Virus record (IMG/VR): IMGVR_UViG_3300025896_000217
Span: 1 to 21,326 of that record
DNA: 21,326 bases
Reading direction: 5' to 3' (one strand)
Origin: a virus
The notes below the pieces were generated by a model. It ran no database searches and was not told the origin of the DNA. It saw only the letters and a program-made list of their open reading frames with translations. A program made the position numbers and the translations under genes. Positions 10,428 to 19,616 of the stretch are shown here, in pieces; the stretch's first letter is position 1; every line of letters begins with the position of its first letter.

Positions 10428-11897
10428 TTATGCAACCCTAGACAGGTTTCTTTTCAACGGCTGTCCCCACTTGGTGCTGGCTTTGCTCCCCATCATGCCG
10501 ATTACAGCGTCACTCGCAAACGTCAAACAGAATGCATCAGCCTTGTCAGGTGAGGCCAAACCCCGCTTCTTGATCTCGTCCTTGCTCTCGATCTGAATCT
10601 TGCCGTTAGACGTAAACATATAACGCACGGTCGCCAACTCGGCCACCAGCAGCTCATCCTTGGGAAGCCGACAGTCCCGCTGCTCCAGCCACGCCTTAGC
10701 CTTGTACCAAAGCTCGGCCTTCAGATTCCGGTAAGTCCCGCCCATGGCTGGACTCTCGCTGACGTTGATCCCGCGAGCAGGCAGCCCCAACTCTTTCAGC
10801 CGATCCACGACTCCGGCACCAAGCCCAATGCTGTCCACCAGTATCTCTTCGGGTCTGTCGCTTGGCGGCAGCGCCTCAAACTCAACCACCACCGCGCCGG
10901 TCAGCTGCATCAAATCCAAATTCTTCCATGTCTTAATCGGCTCAATCACCGCATTCCCCCGCCGCTTGCACAGCGCCGAACGGTCAGAGCCAAACCTTGC
11001 AACGTCCAAGCCCCAGACCAGCGGCGCGTAAGGACTCGCCACCACGTCCCGATTCATCGCCAAGTCCAAAAGCTCCATGGGAATAACCGTATCCTCATCA
11101 CTCCTCGGAAATTCACCCAGCACGCGAATCCGATAAGCGTTACTCTCCTCGCCGTACCGCGCCTTCATCTCCTCAATGTAAGCCTCACTCACCCTCGGCG
11201 AGTCGGCGCAGGACACCTTCATCGTCACCCAATCCCCCGCCAGACGGTTGTGGGTATCGTAGAAAAACCCGCTACTCCTGACCGGATTGCCAAGTAACAG
11301 CGTGACGGCGTTGTGGCCGGACATACTTCCGCTGGCCGCCTCAAACACCTTCTCCGGTATACCGCTGGCCTCGTCCCCCACCAGCATCACATGGTCGCTG
11401 TGTACACCTTGCAAGGCTTCAGGCTGCTCGGCCCTCGATGTCCTGGCTGAGATAAACGCCTCCTCGTTGGCATCCTTCACCTCAATGCGATCCTGCTTCA
11501 CCTCCAACATATCAGCCAGCATCGGCGGCAGCACCTTCACCCACCGCTTGACCTCCGCAAACAGCGCGTCATACAGCTGGCTGCTCGTTGGTGCCGTCAC
11601 CACCACCTTCACCGGAAAGCGCAGCAGTAGATACCAGATCATCGCCCAGGCTGACGCGGTGGACTTCCCAACGCCATGGCCTGATCTGACAGAGATACGC
11701 CGGTTGCCCTTGGCAATGTGATTCAAGAATTCCACTTGCCACGGGTCAGGCTCAGTGTTCAGTACCTCGCGGACAAACAGCACAGGGTTATTCTTGTATA
11801 GCTTGACGAATTCGACAAATGGATTGTTTGCCAGCAAATCATTATTTTTTTTGGCTGGACGCGGTTTCGTAGCAGTGGGGGGTAGGGGGTCGGTCAT
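10428..11897 (-). CDS. terL: Terminase large subunit
   Basis: This 489-aa packaging motor ATPase and nuclease pumps phage DNA into the procapsid through the portal. Walker A is SGHGVGKST (72-80), Walker B is VMLVGDEAS (170-178, catalytic E176), and the coupling motif is LLLGNP (200-205). The RNase-H-like nuclease carries D298 (GLDVARFG), D355 (ILVDSIGLG) and D451/D454 (SPDKADAF). Both halves are intact and the length is normal. The N-terminal 20 residues are Pro/Lys-rich. No Shine-Dalgarno sequence is visible before the ATG. The sequence there is G-rich on the plus strand. It lies downstream of the small terminase, but 318 bases of non-coding sequence separate the two, which is unusual for this pair. 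Confidence 0.93.
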   Translation of the reverse strand: MTDPLPPTATKPRPAKKNNDLLANNPFVEFVKLYKNNPVLFVREVLNTEPDPWQVEFLNHIAKGNRRISVRSGHGVGKSTASAWAMIWYLLLRFPVKVVVTAPTSSQLYDALFAEVKRWVKVLPPMLADMLEVKQDRIEVKDANEEAFISARTSRAEQPEALQGVHSDHVMLVGDEASGIPEKVFEAASGSMSGHNAVTLLLGNPVRSSGFFYDTHNRLAGDWVTMKVSCADSPRVSEAYIEEMKARYGEESNAYRIRVLGEFPRSDEDTVIPMELLDLAMNRDVVASPYAPLVWGLDVARFGSDRSALCKRRGNAVIEPIKTWKNLDLMQLTGAVVVEFEALPPSDRPEEILVDSIGLGAGVVDRLKELGLPARGINVSESPAMGGTYRNLKAELWYKAKAWLEQRDCRLPKDELLVAELATVRYMFTSNGKIQIESKDEIKKRGLASPDKADAFCLTFASDAVIGMMGSKASTKWGQPLKRNLSRVA

Positions 11898-12215
11898 GTT
11901 CGGTGGGCTATGGGATTTGGTAGGTGTTCGGTTGCATCTTCAGCCGCCCCCGCCGAAATTGCTCGAGGGGGGGGTCATCGCCGCCCACGGCCAGCGGCAC
12001 GCTCCAGCGCCAGCAGCGGCCACTTTACCGTTAAAAGTTATCCACAATCCACTATTCATGCAAGTCATTGATATATATGCTTTCTTACAGAATGCTGACA
12101 TATTCCATTTAACACGATGTCCATTATGTTAAGTCAATTGTGGATAACTGACCAGTATTTGCTCAACAAACAGGCAGAGTTGCGTTATCCACAGGGCAAT
12201 GTGTTCAATCATGGC
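11898..12215. other. Non-coding region between terminase genes
   Basis: This 318-base gap has no credible ORF. Bases 11,898-12,025 are G+C-rich with an 8-G run at 11,967-11,974 facing a 5-C run at 11,947-11,951. Bases 12,031-12,140 are A+T-rich, including an ATATATAT-like stretch near 12,070-12,080. It contains three of the four DnaA boxes, a TTAACA-N12-TGTTAA dyad (12,109-12,132) and a candidate minus-strand promoter. Confidence 0.7.
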
Positions 12216-12243
12216 TTAATCGTACCTCTCGCCTGTGGATAAC
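12036..12243. other. Candidate replication origin: four perfect DnaA boxes
   Basis: Four copies of the consensus DnaA box TTATCCACA lie at 12,038-12,046 (+), 12,139-12,147 (-), 12,185-12,193 (+) and 12,234-12,242 (-). They alternate in orientation. Boxes 1 and 2 share a 13-base inverted match (AGTTATCCACAAT). Boxes 3 and 4 share a 12-base inverted match (GTTATCCACAGG). Between boxes 1 and 2 is an A+T-rich stretch suited to unwinding. Box 4 lies inside the 3' end of the small terminase gene. DnaA boxes of this exact sequence are the bacterial initiator's high-affinity sites, so host DnaA binding is likely; origin activity is inferred. Confidence 0.6.
12109..12137 (-). promoter_or_regulatory. 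Candidate promoter for terL and late genes
   Basis: On the minus strand TTGACT (12,137-12,132) is followed after 17 bases by TGTTAA (12,114-12,109), a weak -10. The -35 abuts DnaA box 2. The 8-mer TTGACTTA recurs in the promoter region near 19,700. It would give a leader of about 200 bases before the terminase start. Confidence 0.3.
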
Positions 12244-12647
12244 TCGTCAACCACTTCAACATGGCGCAGTGCGGCCATGCGTAAGTCTTGGATGTTTATG
12301 TTGATCGAGGCTGCTTTTTGTAAGCCGTAAGTCTTCTGATCCCACCTTTCGGCCAGCCACTGCCTGGTTCGGATGCGCTGGACATCGCGCTGCGGATGCT
12401 CCACGTCCATGTCGTCCGCAATGGTCATTGTCTCCACCGCCAACTTATCGGCGGCTATCGCGCGCGCACGCGCAATTATAGAGGGATCGGTATCTTCGAT
12501 CCATTGCTCTAGCGCCCTGCGCCCAATGCCGAGTTCGTAGCAGATCGTTGTCTGTGACTTGCCTGCCTCAAACATGGACACGATCATGTCGTGAGGCAAT
12601 TCCTCAAGCAGAGTCATGTCCTGTCTGAATTTCGGTCTTCCTGCCAC
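12216..12647 (-). CDS. Terminase small subunit
   Basis: This 143-aa protein should recognise phage DNA and start packaging with the large terminase. Residues 10-55 form a helix-turn-helix: MIVSMFEAGKSQTTICYELG then GIGRRALEQWIEDTDP. Residues 88-112 (RDVQRIRTRQWLAERWDQKTYG) give the 'R...RxWLAxRxxPxxYG' oligomerisation segment seen in Sf6-like small terminases. The start is a GTG at 12,647 (MAGRPKF) behind GAGGAGG. The last 27 bases overlap DnaA box 4. Length and position upstream of terL support the call. Confidence 0.8.
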   Translation of the reverse strand: MAGRPKFRQDMTLLEELPHDMIVSMFEAGKSQTTICYELGIGRRALEQWIEDTDPSIIARARAIAADKLAVETMTIADDMDVEHPQRDVQRIRTRQWLAERWDQKTYGLQKAASININIQDLRMAALRHVEVVDELSTGERYD

Positions 12648-12649
12648 GC

Positions 12650-12718
12650 TCAGACCCTCCTCAGAGCCGTTTTAATCCGCTGGACGATGTCCAGTACCCA
12701 TTGCTTAATTCGCTGCAT
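12650..12718 (-). CDS. Possible 22-aa amphipathic peptide
   Basis: An ATG at 12,718 opens a 22-codon frame encoding MQRIKQWVLDIVQRIKTALR plus RV. It has a good ribosome site (AGGAAGG, 7 bases before the ATG), overlaps the end of the 240-codon gene by 14 bases and ends 2 bases before the small-terminase GTG. Hydrophobic and basic residues alternate as in an amphipathic helix with net charge about +4. It could be a translation-coupling leader for the terminase or a membrane-active peptide. It is short enough to be chance. Confidence 0.35.
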   Translation of the reverse strand: MQRIKQWVLDIVQRIKTALRRV

Positions 12719-13388
12719 TCTTGAGCCTTCCTGCGAGTTTGGTGTCGAATTTCTTTTCCATGACTTCATTGTCATCGAATTTCAAGTCGTTTTCAAAGTC
12801 ATCAAATCCTGTTGCACCGCCCAGCTTGAAGTCTGCTGTTGGTTTGAATGCTGTGACTTTGGCTGTTGGGAATAGTTCTTTGATCTTGATGACCTGTTGC
12901 ATACGCTCATCGGCCATCAATGCCTCAATCTCTTCCATTGCCCAGATATTCTGATTGCTGATGTCTTGACGCTCCCGCTGGATAGCCACGGCCTCGTTGA
13001 CCGTTCTGACAATCACCATGACCTGGCCGTTTTGCATCTCCCACTCAATCCTCGGGATGCTGTCGCTGGCCGGTGATATACCTTGATCGGCTGCCCACTG
13101 ATCCAGCACGCCATACGCTCTGATCATTCCCGCCAGGCTTGAATCGAATTTCGCCTGATCCTTTGCCGTGACTGCTTGCTGCAATCTGGCGTTCTGAATC
13201 CAGAATTTCTCTCTAAGTTGACTGTCTACTAAAGTAATCAGTCGATTTTCTCCCCATTTCCTGTCGCTGACTGCCTTTACTGACTCCAACTCCACCAGTT
13301 TGGATTGAACGTAAATCGTCCAAGGGTCTGCTTGTGGGCTTGGACTCGTTGCTGGTGGATGCTGTCTGCTCTTTTGCTTTGTTGCCAT
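12705..13388 (-). CDS. Hypothetical protein upstream of terminase genes
   Basis: This protein is 227 aa from the ATG at 13,388 (MATKQKSRQHPPATSPSPQA). An in-frame ATG at 13,427 would give 240 aa, but the later start has GGAA 7 bases upstream and a more natural N-terminus. After a Pro/Ser-rich N-terminus the protein is helical (WGENRLITLVDSQLREKFWI; AIQRERQDISNQNIWAMEEI). It ends in an acidic and basic stretch (FDDFENDLKFDDNEVMEKKF). I recognise no domain. It is the first gene downstream of the SOS-box control region and the first of the packaging and head transcription unit. A packaging or regulatory role is possible from position only. Confidence 0.7.
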   Translation of the reverse strand: MATKQKSRQHPPATSPSPQADPWTIYVQSKLVELESVKAVSDRKWGENRLITLVDSQLREKFWIQNARLQQAVTAKDQAKFDSSLAGMIRAYGVLDQWAADQGISPASDSIPRIEWEMQNGQVMVIVRTVNEAVAIQRERQDISNQNIWAMEEIEALMADERMQQVIKIKELFPTAKVTAFKPTADFKLGGATGFDDFENDLKFDDNEVMEKKFDTKLAGRLKNAAN

Positions 13389-13428
13389 TTTGATTTCCAT
13401 TCTCTTACGACATGACATTACGGACAAC

Positions 13429-13517
13429 GATAAGCGACAAACCTCCGAGTCTTAGACTCTCGGTTTGTCTTGTCGCTATCGGGACAGACAAAGCGCGACA
13501 AAGTCGCTATTTGTCGC
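13429..13517. promoter_or_regulatory. Cluster of inverted repeats in control region
   Basis: The heptamer GCGACAA/TTGTCGC occurs four times in alternating orientation (13,434-13,440, 13,470-13,476, 13,495-13,501, 13,511-13,517). The first pair flanks a long dyad: GACAAACC (13,436-13,443) with GGTTTGTC (13,462-13,469), enclosing GAGTC-TTA-GACTC. The second pair forms GCGACAAA-7-TTTGTCGC (13,495-13,517). Neither is followed by a T-run, so these are more likely protein-binding sites or 5'-leader structure than terminators. Confidence 0.6.
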
Positions 13518-13525
13518 TGTGCTTT

Positions 13526-13541
13526 CTGTATGTTCATACAG
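13526..13541. promoter_or_regulatory. LexA-type SOS box
   Basis: CTGTATGTTCATACAG fits CTGT-N8-ACAG with 7-base perfect arms. Read on the minus strand, TACTGTATGAACATACAGAA matches the E. coli recA operator as I remember it at 18 of 20 positions. It lies 2 bases past the primase-helicase stop and 138 bases upstream of the next gene, so it is placed to control the packaging and head operon. CTGT-N8-ACAG is the LexA site in gamma- and betaproteobacteria. Confidence 0.7.
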
Positions 13542-13543
13542 TA

Positions 13544-15616
13544 TTAAAACTCATTCTGATTGCTTGGTTTGGACATCAGCCATACAAATTTGTCTCTGAT
13601 TCCGATCAGTCCAGCCTCTGATAACCGTTCCTGAGCGCGATTCCATGCCTTGTTAAACGATGCTTTCTGGATGCTATTTGAGTCATCTGTGATGCCCTTC
13701 TTTGACCGAAATTCATTGTGCCAATCGTCCAAATAAACAACCATATGCTGGTTGCCCTCAATAAACTTTAATACTCCTTTTGCTTTTAATACATTTTCAA
13801 GGCTGACCATTTCCATGGTCTGATTTTTGCCACTGCCTGAGTTGCTTTTAGTCTTCTTTTCAGCCGCAAATTTGACCGCCTCATCGCTGGCCTGTACTGC
13901 TAGGCTGGTGATCGGGTCACCTATTTGCAGCGATCCAGCTGGCGGCGCGAGTTCCACGCTGACCATTTCAAAGCCGATTCTTGTGCCGTCCTCACCGTCC
14001 TTTTGCTTGGCTGTGCGGATGATGCCTTTCATAGAGTCCTCAAACCTAATCAATTCCAGTTCGGTGTCTACCGCGCCTAAGAGGCTGGAGTGGCCGCGCA
14101 GTCCTTTGGTGGCATCCTTGCCGCTGTGGTGCAGGATCATCAAGGCGCAGTCCTGAACGATCTGCTGGATGCGTCCGCAGCTGGAGATGAACGAACCCAT
14201 GTCGCTGGAATCGTTCTCGTTGCCGCCGCCAAAGGCTCTGGCTAAGGTGTCGATGATGATCAGCTTGAAGTCGATACCAAGTTCGGTGACAAGGTTTTCT
14301 ACTGCAATCATGAGCGCGTTAAAGTCCTCCACGCTTGATCTCAGGTTTAGCTGGTGCCTGATAACGTAGATCGGCGCGCCATCCTCAGTACCGTGGTGCT
14401 GCTTGATGGCCTTGATCCTTGCGCCGACACCGCCAAACCCTTCCCCGCACAGGTACAGCACCGCGCCTTGCTCTGTCACCTCGTTCCCCATCCACGTCCT
14501 GCCGGTCGCTATCGCCTCGGCAATGTCCAAGGCAATGAACGACTTGAACGAGCCTGGCGGCCCGAACAAGGCGCTGAAACTACCTACCGGCAGCACCTTG
14601 TCTATCATCCACTTCACCGGCTCGTCTTGGATGCTGTCCCAATGCTCAATGTTGATCTGCTTTGGCGGCTTGGCTTGTACTGCTGGCGCTGGCTCTGTTT
14701 CAAATTCCTTGGCGATGTCCGCTGATAGATTCCACGCGGCCATGGTGACTTCCACCACTGAATTTGTAATTGGATTCAACCTTTCGGGCATTGTTACCTG
14801 ATCCACACTTGTGATGATTAGCGCTGCCTTGACCAGCGCCACCAGCTTCTCTCTGCCTGCGCCAGCCTCAATGAATTCATAGGCATCATCTCCTTGGCCT
14901 TGCAGGCCGAGGTCTACTACCTTGACCGACTTGGCGATGGGAAGTATTGCTTGGGCCGCCTTGTGCGCGTACTGCCAGCCAGGCGTGTCGTTGTCCGGCA
15001 ATATGATGACCTGAGCGCCAGCAAAATACTCGGTGATAGCCTCCGGCCAGCTGCCGGCACCAGTGTGCGCCGTTGTTGCGATCATGCCAATGCTTGTGAT
15101 GGCATCTGCGGCTTTCTCGCCTTCCACCAAGAAGATATTCCTGCCTGCTGTCTTTGCGTCCAGCAATGCGGGTAAGTTGTACGGCACTATGCGCGCGTCC
15201 CCAAGGCTTGAGTGCCTACGGCCATCAGCGTCAACCTTGTACAGCCGGTAAGTCTTTCCTGCCTCGCCTACCTTGTACCGCTGCTTGACGAATACCGTTG
15301 TCCTGTCCTCGTCCTGATACTGCCACTCCTGCTCCAAGATATTGCGCGGTATGGGTTTGATGTTTGCGAGTGGGTCGGGGCGTTCCATGAGTTCCGGCAA
15401 CAGGTGCAGTTCCCTGATGGTCTGGAACACGTCCTCCTGACTGCATCCACCGTGACAGTGGAACAGCGGCACGCCGTCATCATTGATGTCTATGCTGAGA
15501 CTCGGATTCTTATCGCCGTTGCCTTTGCCGTGACCAGGCACTGGGCAGCTGGCTACCCACTGACCGTTTGCTTTCTTTGCGTTGCCGAGCGTCTTGGCTA
15601 TTTGTTCTGCTTGCAT
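13544..15616 (-). CDS. Primase-helicase (zinc finger, TOPRIM, RecA/RepA-like ATPase)
   Basis: This 690-aa replication enzyme should make primers and unwind DNA at the fork. The zinc-binding N-terminus is C24, H29, C54 and C58 (ASCPVPGHGKG; FHCHGGC). The TOPRIM domain has E165 (LVEGEKAADA) and D208/D210 (ILPDND). After a linker, the hexameric helicase ATPase has Walker A GPPGSFKS (352-359), Walker B IIID (453-456) and a LILHHSGK-type segment (494-500). I start it at the ATG at 15,616, which has AGAGG 4 bases upstream, rather than at 15,652. It then overlaps the methyltransferase 3' end by 19 bases. It is comparable to T7 gp4 in plan, with a RepA/AAA-25-type motor. Confidence 0.85.
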   Translation of the reverse strand: MQAEQIAKTLGNAKKANGQWVASCPVPGHGKGNGDKNPSLSIDINDDGVPLFHCHGGCSQEDVFQTIRELHLLPELMERPDPLANIKPIPRNILEQEWQYQDEDRTTVFVKQRYKVGEAGKTYRLYKVDADGRRHSSLGDARIVPYNLPALLDAKTAGRNIFLVEGEKAADAITSIGMIATTAHTGAGSWPEAITEYFAGAQVIILPDNDTPGWQYAHKAAQAILPIAKSVKVVDLGLQGQGDDAYEFIEAGAGREKLVALVKAALIITSVDQVTMPERLNPITNSVVEVTMAAWNLSADIAKEFETEPAPAVQAKPPKQINIEHWDSIQDEPVKWMIDKVLPVGSFSALFGPPGSFKSFIALDIAEAIATGRTWMGNEVTEQGAVLYLCGEGFGGVGARIKAIKQHHGTEDGAPIYVIRHQLNLRSSVEDFNALMIAVENLVTELGIDFKLIIIDTLARAFGGGNENDSSDMGSFISSCGRIQQIVQDCALMILHHSGKDATKGLRGHSSLLGAVDTELELIRFEDSMKGIIRTAKQKDGEDGTRIGFEMVSVELAPPAGSLQIGDPITSLAVQASDEAVKFAAEKKTKSNSGSGKNQTMEMVSLENVLKAKGVLKFIEGNQHMVVYLDDWHNEFRSKKGITDDSNSIQKASFNKAWNRAQERLSEAGLIGIRDKFVWLMSKPSNQNEF

Positions 15617-16827
15617 ATTGCCTCTACTTCTTGTATGCGTTGTCCGATCCACGCCATCACAGGCACTGCCATGCTATTGCCCAATGCTTTGTAGCGCGGG
15701 CCATCAGGCGTAGGTTTGCCCTTGGCTTGGATGTCGGTGTAGTTATCGCCAAAGCCTTGGAGTCTCTCGCATTCTTTTGGTGTGAGTCGGCGTACTGCCA
15801 TTGATGATTGATATACCGAATACACCTGTTGCGTCACCTCAGATGACTGTGGCGATCTGCTTGGATCGTTGGCGGCAGTAAGAGTAGGTGCGACAACTGA
15901 ATGCGCCACCGCCATCGGATTCTTGGCTTGCAGGGTTTGCGTCATGTCCACATCTGTCTGCGGGTTTGACATCTGGCCGCTGAATGCAATGGGTTGCGGA
16001 ATTAATCGGCCTGTATATGCATCTTGTCCACTGTATGAACCTGGATGAGTATCGGCACATAAAGCGCCAACAGTTTCATGAATAACAAGTGGAGTCTGGT
16101 TGCTGATACCGGCAGTTCCACCTGTATTGTGGCAAGTTAAAAAAGGCACTTCTTTTGCACCACCCTCTGCATTCACAAGATATTTTGATGGTGCTAATTC
16201 TTCGTGGTTGTTACGACTGATTCCAAAGCGTGCTGCAATTGTTCCGGCAACACCTTGCCCATTTTCTCTGCTCGGCGCAGGATTCCCTGACAGGCTGTGG
16301 CGCTCAAAAAGAACCGCTGCGGCAAGTCGCCAATCTCCAAGGTATCCGACAACGAACACACGGCGGCGGCGCTGTGCCACTCCAAAGTATTGAGCGTCAA
16401 GCACCCTGTATGCGAACCCATACCCGCATTCTGCCAACCCTTCAAGGAAGCTGCCAAAGTCCCGTCCTCCATTGGAGGACAGAACGCCGGGGACGTTCTC
16501 CCAGACCAACCAGTTGGGGCGATATTGTTTAGCAATGGCAAGATAGGTAAGCATGAGGTTGCCACGAGGGTCATCCAATCCTTTTCTGAGTCCAGCGACA
16601 CTAAATGATTGGCAGGGAGTTCCTCCAACGAGAACATCGACATCTGAGACATTTGTCCACTCCTTAAATTTCGTCATGTCGCCAAGGTTTGGCGTTTGTG
16701 GATAGTGGTGCGCCAGCACCTGTGAGGGGAACTTTTCGATCTCTGAATACGCTACTGCTTTCCATCCAAGGGGATGCCATGCAACTGTTGCCGCCTCAAT
16801 ACCACTGCAAAGTGAGAGATATTTCAT
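15598..16827 (-). CDS. C5-cytosine DNA methyltransferase, orphan
   Basis: This 409-aa enzyme methylates cytosine at C5, probably to shield phage DNA from host restriction. Motif I is LSLCSGIEAA (4-13), motif IV is GGTPCQSFSVAG (68-79, nucleophile C72), motif VI is WENVPG (109-114), motif VIII is QRRRRVFVVG (152-161). The target-recognition region spans about 165-345. Motif IX is RRLTPKECERLQGF and motif X ALGNSMAVPVM near the C-terminus. All catalytic motifs are intact. No restriction endonuclease is adjacent. No Shine-Dalgarno is visible before the ATG, and a terminator ends only 17 bases upstream, so expression must depend on readthrough or an unseen promoter. A second gene is nested inside codons 59-212 in another frame. 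The target sequence is unknown. Confidence 0.92.
   Translation of the reverse strand: MKYLSLCSGIEAATVAWHPLGWKAVAYSEIEKFPSQVLAHHYPQTPNLGDMTKFKEWTNVSDVDVLVGGTPCQSFSVAGLRKGLDDPRGNLMLTYLAIAKQYRPNWLVWENVPGVLSSNGGRDFGSFLEGLAECGYGFAYRVLDAQYFGVAQRRRRVFVVGYLGDWRLAAAVLFERHSLSGNPAPSRENGQGVAGTIAARFGISRNNHEELAPSKYLVNAEGGAKEVPFLTCHNTGGTAGISNQTPLVIHETVGALCADTHPGSYSGQDAYTGRLIPQPIAFSGQMSNPQTDVDMTQTLQAKNPMAVAHSVVAPTLTAANDPSRSPQSSEVTQQVYSVYQSSMAVRRLTPKECERLQGFGDNYTDIQAKGKPTPDGPRYKALGNSMAVPVMAWIGQRIQEVEAICKQNK
16194..16652 (-). CDS. Overprinted gene nested in the methyltransferase gene
   Basis: This 152-aa frame lies wholly inside the methyltransferase, same strand, shifted by one base, covering its codons 59-212 (motifs IV, VI, VIII). 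Its ATG at 16,652 is preceded by a perfect AAGGAG with a 7-base spacer. The protein has ordinary composition: MSQMSMFSLEELPANHLVSL opening, GWSGRTSP (48-55), GWQNAGMGS (72-80), and FFLSATACQGILRRAEK (114-130) followed by MGKVLPEQLQHAL. From memory, the segment (Y/F)FLSxxACxGILRRAEKRGKxLPxxLxxAL recurs in many phage hypothetical proteins beside or overlapping C5 methyltransferases, so it is probably a real overprinted gene. Its function is unknown. An anti-restriction or methyltransferase-modulating role would be a guess. Confidence 0.72.
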   Translation of the reverse strand: MSQMSMFSLEELPANHLVSLDSEKDWMTLVATSCLPILPLLNNIAPTGWSGRTSPAFCPPMEDGTLAASLKGWQNAGMGSHTGCLTLNTLEWHSAAAVCSLSDTLEIGDLPQRFFLSATACQGILRRAEKMGKVLPEQLQHALESVVTTTKN

Positions 16828-19538: not shown

Positions 19539-19545
19539 GTGTATG

Positions 19546-19575
19546 ATGTTAACCATGTTTTGTGGAAAGCGTCAA
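19546..19575 (-). promoter_or_regulatory. Candidate promoter for the regulator operon
   Basis: On the minus strand TTGACG (19,575-19,570) and TAACAT (19,551-19,546) are separated by 18 bases. The expected start of transcription falls within a few bases of the ATG at 19,538. Confidence 0.5.
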
Positions 19576-19585
19576 GTGTACAGGT

Positions 19586-19616
19586 AAAAAAAGGGGATCA
19601 GCGTGAACCGATCCCC
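19586..19616 (-). terminator. Minus-strand intrinsic terminator
   Basis: The stem GGGGATC / GATCCCC (7 bp, loop of 10 at 19,600-19,609) is followed on the minus strand by seven Ts. It lies upstream of the regulator promoter and downstream of no annotated gene, so it must end a short transcript from the 19,680-19,760 region. Confidence 0.8.

Follow-up and report, generated by a model that had tools for sequence, protein, structure and literature searches.

A candidate LexA box beside the presumed replication origin of an uncultured tailed phage

Described systems and the present locus

The P4 alpha protein joins primase and helicase in one polypeptide; its C-terminal part presumably recognises the origin, and the replicon has short repeats. 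Kimsey and Waldor reportedly described in 2009 how host LexA coordinates CTXphi gene expression. CTXphi also uses host Xer without a phage integrase (PMC4439123). Phage GIL01 has no SOS-sensitive repressor of its own and is directly repressed by host LexA (PMC4551915); it carries LexA boxes and does not integrate (PMC4551915; PMC9700832). In SaPIs, the Rep protein uses its C-terminal domain to recognise iterons that lie immediately after the rep gene (PMC7581432), and operon I, which contains terS and follows the SaPI ori, is LexA-controlled (PMC5052747).

We analysed one stretch of viral DNA, hereafter the window (21,326 nt), in which all genes lie on the minus strand. Read along that strand, the order is replication gene, CTGT-N8-ACAG box, a 227-aa gene, terS, terL, portal and capsid (Table 1). 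The arrangement resembles that of SaPIs: a replication gene with a presumed C-terminal origin-recognition domain, iterons directly downstream, and then a packaging module with terS. Two hallmarks of SaPI-type initiators are present, in that the iterons directly follow the primase gene and the C-terminal domain and iterons change together. Because SaPI operon I carries terS after the ori under LexA control, it is the nearest precedent for the gene order here, and by this analogy LexA control of late genes is plausible. In contrast to SaPIs, however, the element is a ~36-kb phage that carries terL, portal and capsid genes itself, unlike a SaPI/PICI satellite, which lacks most virion genes and depends on a helper phage, and its CTGT-N8-ACAG-type box precedes the iterons, at the rep stop codon, where no promoter was found.

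The other systems each share part of this layout. Like GIL01, the phage has a LexA box, here a candidate one, and no SOS-sensitive repressor of its own; GIL01, however, is a Bacillus tectivirus with boxes at promoter P1 and a requirement for the cofactor gp7, whereas here a single box lies at the origin with no known cofactor. A possible Xer-like core would be analogous to the situation in CTXphi, although CTXphi is filamentous and replicates by rolling circle, and the candidate site here is without a good XerC arm. The primase-helicase fusion, presumed C-terminal origin recognition and short repeats recall P4 alpha, but the helicase domain here is RSF1010 RepA-like (1g8y), and a profile search of solved structures gave no match to the C-terminal domain.

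Table 1. Features around the box, in window coordinates
Feature	Position	Strand	Remarks
LexA-box-like operator CTGTATGAACATACAG	13526..13541	-	palindrome, 7-base arms
20-base box context TACTGTATGAACATACAGAA	13524..13543	-	18/20 to E. coli recA operator
Primase-helicase	13544..15652	-	702 aa; RepA/AAA_25 helicase domain; presumed replication initiator
Variable C-terminal domain of primase-helicase	13547..13870	-	co-varies with adjacent iterons; presumed origin-binding
Intergenic iteron region	13434..13520	-	GCGACAAA / TTTGTCGC repeats in both orientations; presumed replication origin
Hairpin core	13445..13463	-	CCGAGAGTCTAAGACTCGG, also given as CGAGAGTCTNNAGACTCG
First gene downstream of box and origin	12705..13388	-	227 aa; no family match
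Terminase small subunit	12216..12647	-	Sf6 type
Terminase large subunit	10428..11897	-	
Four perfect DnaA boxes	12038..12242	.	TTATCCACA; terS end and terS-terL gap
Possible Xer/dif-like site	12107..12134	-	ATTTAACACGA TGTCCA TTATGTTAAGT in reverse complement

Sequence, position and conservation of the box

The only exact CTGT-N8-ACAG in the window is CTGTATGTTCATACAG (13526-13541), whose perfect 7-base arms, already noted in the initial annotation, are CTGTATG and CATACAG on either side of TT. Its comparison with the E. coli recA operator also proved accurate: TACTGTATGAGCATACAGTA and the minus-strand 20-mer are identical at 18 of 20 positions, and the operator/promoter letters were confirmed across 5371 E. 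coli genomes. The bare pattern is weak evidence, with 0.38 occurrences expected per window and at least one in 34% of shuffles. Scored with a LexA matrix of 15 E. coli operators, which may not represent the host's motif, the box reaches 21.2, where the source operators span 13.9–22.4. The runner-up in the window scores 10.2, and a simulated sequence of 1 Mb had no place at or above 21.2. The palindrome, A+T-rich middle and operator-like score together fit a LexA site of the gamma/betaproteobacterial type.

The box starts 2 nt past the primase-helicase stop (codon 13544-13546, minus strand), and the likely ATG of the next gene (13388) lies 137 nt downstream of it. The earlier placement of the box between that stop and the packaging unit is therefore right on the primase side and incomplete on the other, where an iteron-rich presumed origin of ~155 nt, previously missed, intervenes. 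The box forms the upstream edge of this intergenic stretch. A terminator was ruled out: the 7-bp AU-rich stem is without a U-run, and the box is absent from terminator-like sites.

Related phages, on whose sequences the initial annotation had partly staked its reading, mostly carry the box as well. Across 18 distinct versions, pairwise identity is 91% in CTGT/ACAG, 57% in the middle eight positions and 51–55% in the 16-nt flanks, and the mean LexA score of 18.6 compares with 12.5 ± 0.8 for an equal number of random changes and 15.6 for the best of 5000 random-mutation trials; because the rows are interrelated and recombine, these figures, like the cassette counts below, are descriptive rather than independent trials. 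By this comparison the box is conserved in the way a LexA operator would be. Roughly 31 of 45 distinct cassettes hold it (LexA score >13), while all remaining cassettes score <6, and across many distinct cassettes it keeps a constant distance from the primase stop codon. Such LexA-like constraint supports, at the level of sequence, the identification of the site as a LexA box.

On a tree of primase N-terminal parts, the box is confined to one well-supported clade (26 of 35 rows) and undergoes about seven state changes in all, a history most simply read as one gain and several losses. G003 and G006, two relatives with terminal repeats, lack a comparable box outside coding sequence, which shows that it can be dispensed with. 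No exact box occurs in the distant relatives MW202879 and MW202711. CTGT-N8-ACAG matches within the primase gene of several relatives, such as CTGTGGGCATATACAG, belong to a conserved coding stretch (CGHIQ) and were rejected as boxes.

An exchangeable cassette with a presumed origin

Loci came from a primase scan (47 viral loci) and a TerL scan (80), and a hairpin pattern added further cassettes. Short repeats follow the primase in every phage of the box-bearing clade, with repeat sequences that vary among GCGACAAA, GGTAACA, GGTTACA, GGGAACA, GTAACAA, CTTACAA, GGAGACA, CGATCGGAAG and ATCAGAAGCG. The hairpin core, by comparison, is nearly constant throughout the clade, independent of iteron type. 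In the window, the intergenic region between primase and next gene folds far better than its shuffles (z −4.7 as DNA, −4.1 as RNA), and this iteron-rich region is probably the replication origin. An Rfam search of positions 12000-15000 returned nothing meaningful.

The C-terminal part of the primase-helicase varies with these repeats. In pairs whose N-terminal parts are >70% identical, identity averages 80% over the N-terminal part and 47% over the C-terminal 100 residues. C-terminal similarity predicts common repeat words given the N-terminal part (partial rank Mantel r 0.48, with 0 of 2000 permutations as high), whereas the converse, N-terminal similarity given the C-terminal part, yields a partial Mantel value of −0.21. 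One pair, L131 and L128, illustrates the difference, being 92% identical in the N-terminal part and 16% in the C-terminal part, with zero repeat words in common. This co-variation of domain and adjacent repeats indicates a SaPI-like initiator and iteron origin, in which the primase-helicase would be an initiator whose presumed origin-binding domain can be swapped along with the iterons that match it. Closely related backbones carry at least eight repeat types, and this natural set of paired initiator domains and iterons makes the origin-recognition specificity of primase-helicases directly testable.

The box belongs to the same unit. Its sequence tracks the initiator's C-terminal domain (partial r 0.57) rather than the backbone, and the box is therefore inherited within the replicator cassette, which comprises this domain, the box, the iterons and the hairpin. 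The outer CTGT/ACAG letters are still 92% identical when phages with unrelated iterons are compared. Because this core is kept beside unrelated iterons, its reader is probably separate from the iteron-reading domain, and most likely host LexA.

In four loci (L028, L030, L032 and L034), the primase frame continues through the iterons and hairpin to a C-terminus of SEAIRSDQKSDASDDQKSESETRVYKTRSF, so the origin repeats are translated there.

Candidate readers of the box and phage lifestyle

The exact spacing and letters make host LexA of the gamma/betaproteobacterial type the best candidate reader, and we consider it likely that host LexA binds the box. Sequence establishes the site itself, its LexA-like conservation pattern, its fixed position next to the stop codon and the link that ties it to the C-terminal domain and iterons. 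We give even chances to the fuller proposal that it is a genuine gamma/betaproteobacterial-type LexA operator, carried in an exchangeable replicator cassette and exerting a regulatory effect at the origin/packaging junction.

How might such an operator act? Since every gene in the order runs on the minus strand, LexA at the box would sit at the origin's edge as well as between early replication and late genes. The mechanism we favour is that, while the host is undamaged, LexA there would hold back transcription that otherwise crosses the origin into the terS-terL-head genes or, alternatively, would prevent the origin from opening. Removal of LexA by DNA damage, or by single-stranded DNA arising from phage replication itself, would then let replication and packaging proceed. 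Going one step further, we tentatively propose a modular SOS-gated replicator, in which host LexA at the edge of a tailed-phage iteron origin controls origin firing or transcription. Equally tentative is the evolutionary side of this model, that the whole unit is swapped between phages, so that origin specificity changes and control by host damage is retained.

A classical alternative is that the box is the operator of a packaging/head promoter, at which LexA would keep the late genes silent until SOS starts virion production. The one-strand gene order and the precedent of SaPI operon I (PMC5052747) agree with it, as do the GGAGACA-type relatives, in which TTGATA-17-AAAAAT lies at the box and scores 10.2, above their random 95% levels, next to a right box arm that reads ACAT. 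In the window, however, a sigma-70 consensus scan in the reading direction found no promoter overlapping the box (score 1.2 against a random mean of 3.5), and most relatives likewise have no good sigma-70-like promoter there, the GGAGACA type alone having a strong one. That LexA simply occludes a promoter of the packaging operon is thus possible but unsupported in this phage. The box also tracks the origin cassette rather than the backbone, and an iteron and hairpin region separates it from the first gene. The direct LexA control of late genes put forward in the initial annotation is a plausible reading, but in its form as a classical promoter operator we regard it as possible but doubtful.

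We judge it unlikely that the box is part of the origin and serves a replication protein of phage or host instead of LexA, for example as an operator for an initiator dimer or as the site of an accessory protein at the iteron edge. Its correlation with the initiator C-terminal domain is what such a role would produce, and the box adjoins the iterons and is lost where another cassette type is present. Yet the near-identity of the core across unrelated iterons makes the iteron-reading domain an unlikely reader, and the spacing, A+T-rich middle and tolerated changes all match LexA. A second phage protein, the HTH_3 repressor, was rejected as reader, because its sequence is independent of box presence and its own promoter region is without the motif.

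That the box now lacks any function, as a conserved relic or a chance palindrome, is very improbable: the frequency of the bare pattern in shuffles and the several relatives without a box are what it would predict, but the position-specific constraint exceeds every random-mutation trial and the box recurs across numerous distinct cassettes with the same spacing from the stop codon. Least credible is a role in the origin as an AT-rich cruciform or a DNA-unwinding element, for although the box is a palindrome with an 83% A+T middle (over the 18 versions) beside iterons, its outer letters are the conserved ones and complementarity of the inner pairs is kept in only 9 (5/12), 6 (7/10) and 3 (8/9) of the 18, a loss that a protein site fits better.

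If LexA does bind the box, widespread uncultured phages without a recognisable integrase would read host SOS without a self-cleaving repressor of their own. The switch would then lie at the origin/packaging junction and not at the immunity region, and damage to the host's DNA may unlock phage replication or packaging.

The early-operon promoter has no SOS box. Its region, at about 19540-19610 before the HTH_3 gene, contains a terminator (GGGGATCGG...TTTTTT) followed by TTGACG-18-TAACAT, and is conserved in relatives.

The absence of a visible integrase, already remarked on in the initial annotation, extends to related phages. No tyrosine integrase occurs in the 10 relatives searched, and no serine recombinase was found in six records, including the window; the records may be incomplete, but the integrase gene expected of an integrating temperate phage was found in neither set. 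The same six records yielded no S24 peptidase repressor. A primase scan of 84,980 genomes gave zero matches and no prophage copy, and the TerL genome scan returned just a contig of 3.7 kb from a gammaproteobacterial MAG and one 29% match, again with no prophage copy. No near-identical cultured phage was found.

Two further features bear on how the phage is maintained. The four perfect DnaA boxes fall within 205 nt, against 0.12 expected in the whole window, and DnaA boxes are clustered in many relatives too; the cluster is possibly a second, host-dependent origin element. Xer-dependent elements such as CTXphi and cer/psi plasmids have XerC and XerD arms around a centre of 6-8 bp. The Xer-like site, which also lies between terS and terL, has a conserved core, TTAACATAATGGACATCGT (also given as ACTTAACATAATGGACATCGTGTTAAAT; region TTAACATAATGGACATCGTGTTAAAT), whose reverse complement provides a conserved XerD-like arm, TTATGTTAA, with good resemblance to the dif/psi XerD arm. 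The XerC-like arm is weak, agreeing with dif at 4 of 11 positions. The core is a possible Xer resolution or integration site. Together, DnaA boxes and Xer-like core would fit a plasmid-like or Xer-using element without establishing one, and the temperate or episomal life suggested in the initial annotation is possible.

DnaA boxes of the same TTATCCACA sequence also occur in a distant relative, L049 (MW202879), where they lie with CGGAGATACC-type direct repeats directly downstream of repA, in a layout that resembles an initiator-origin arrangement.
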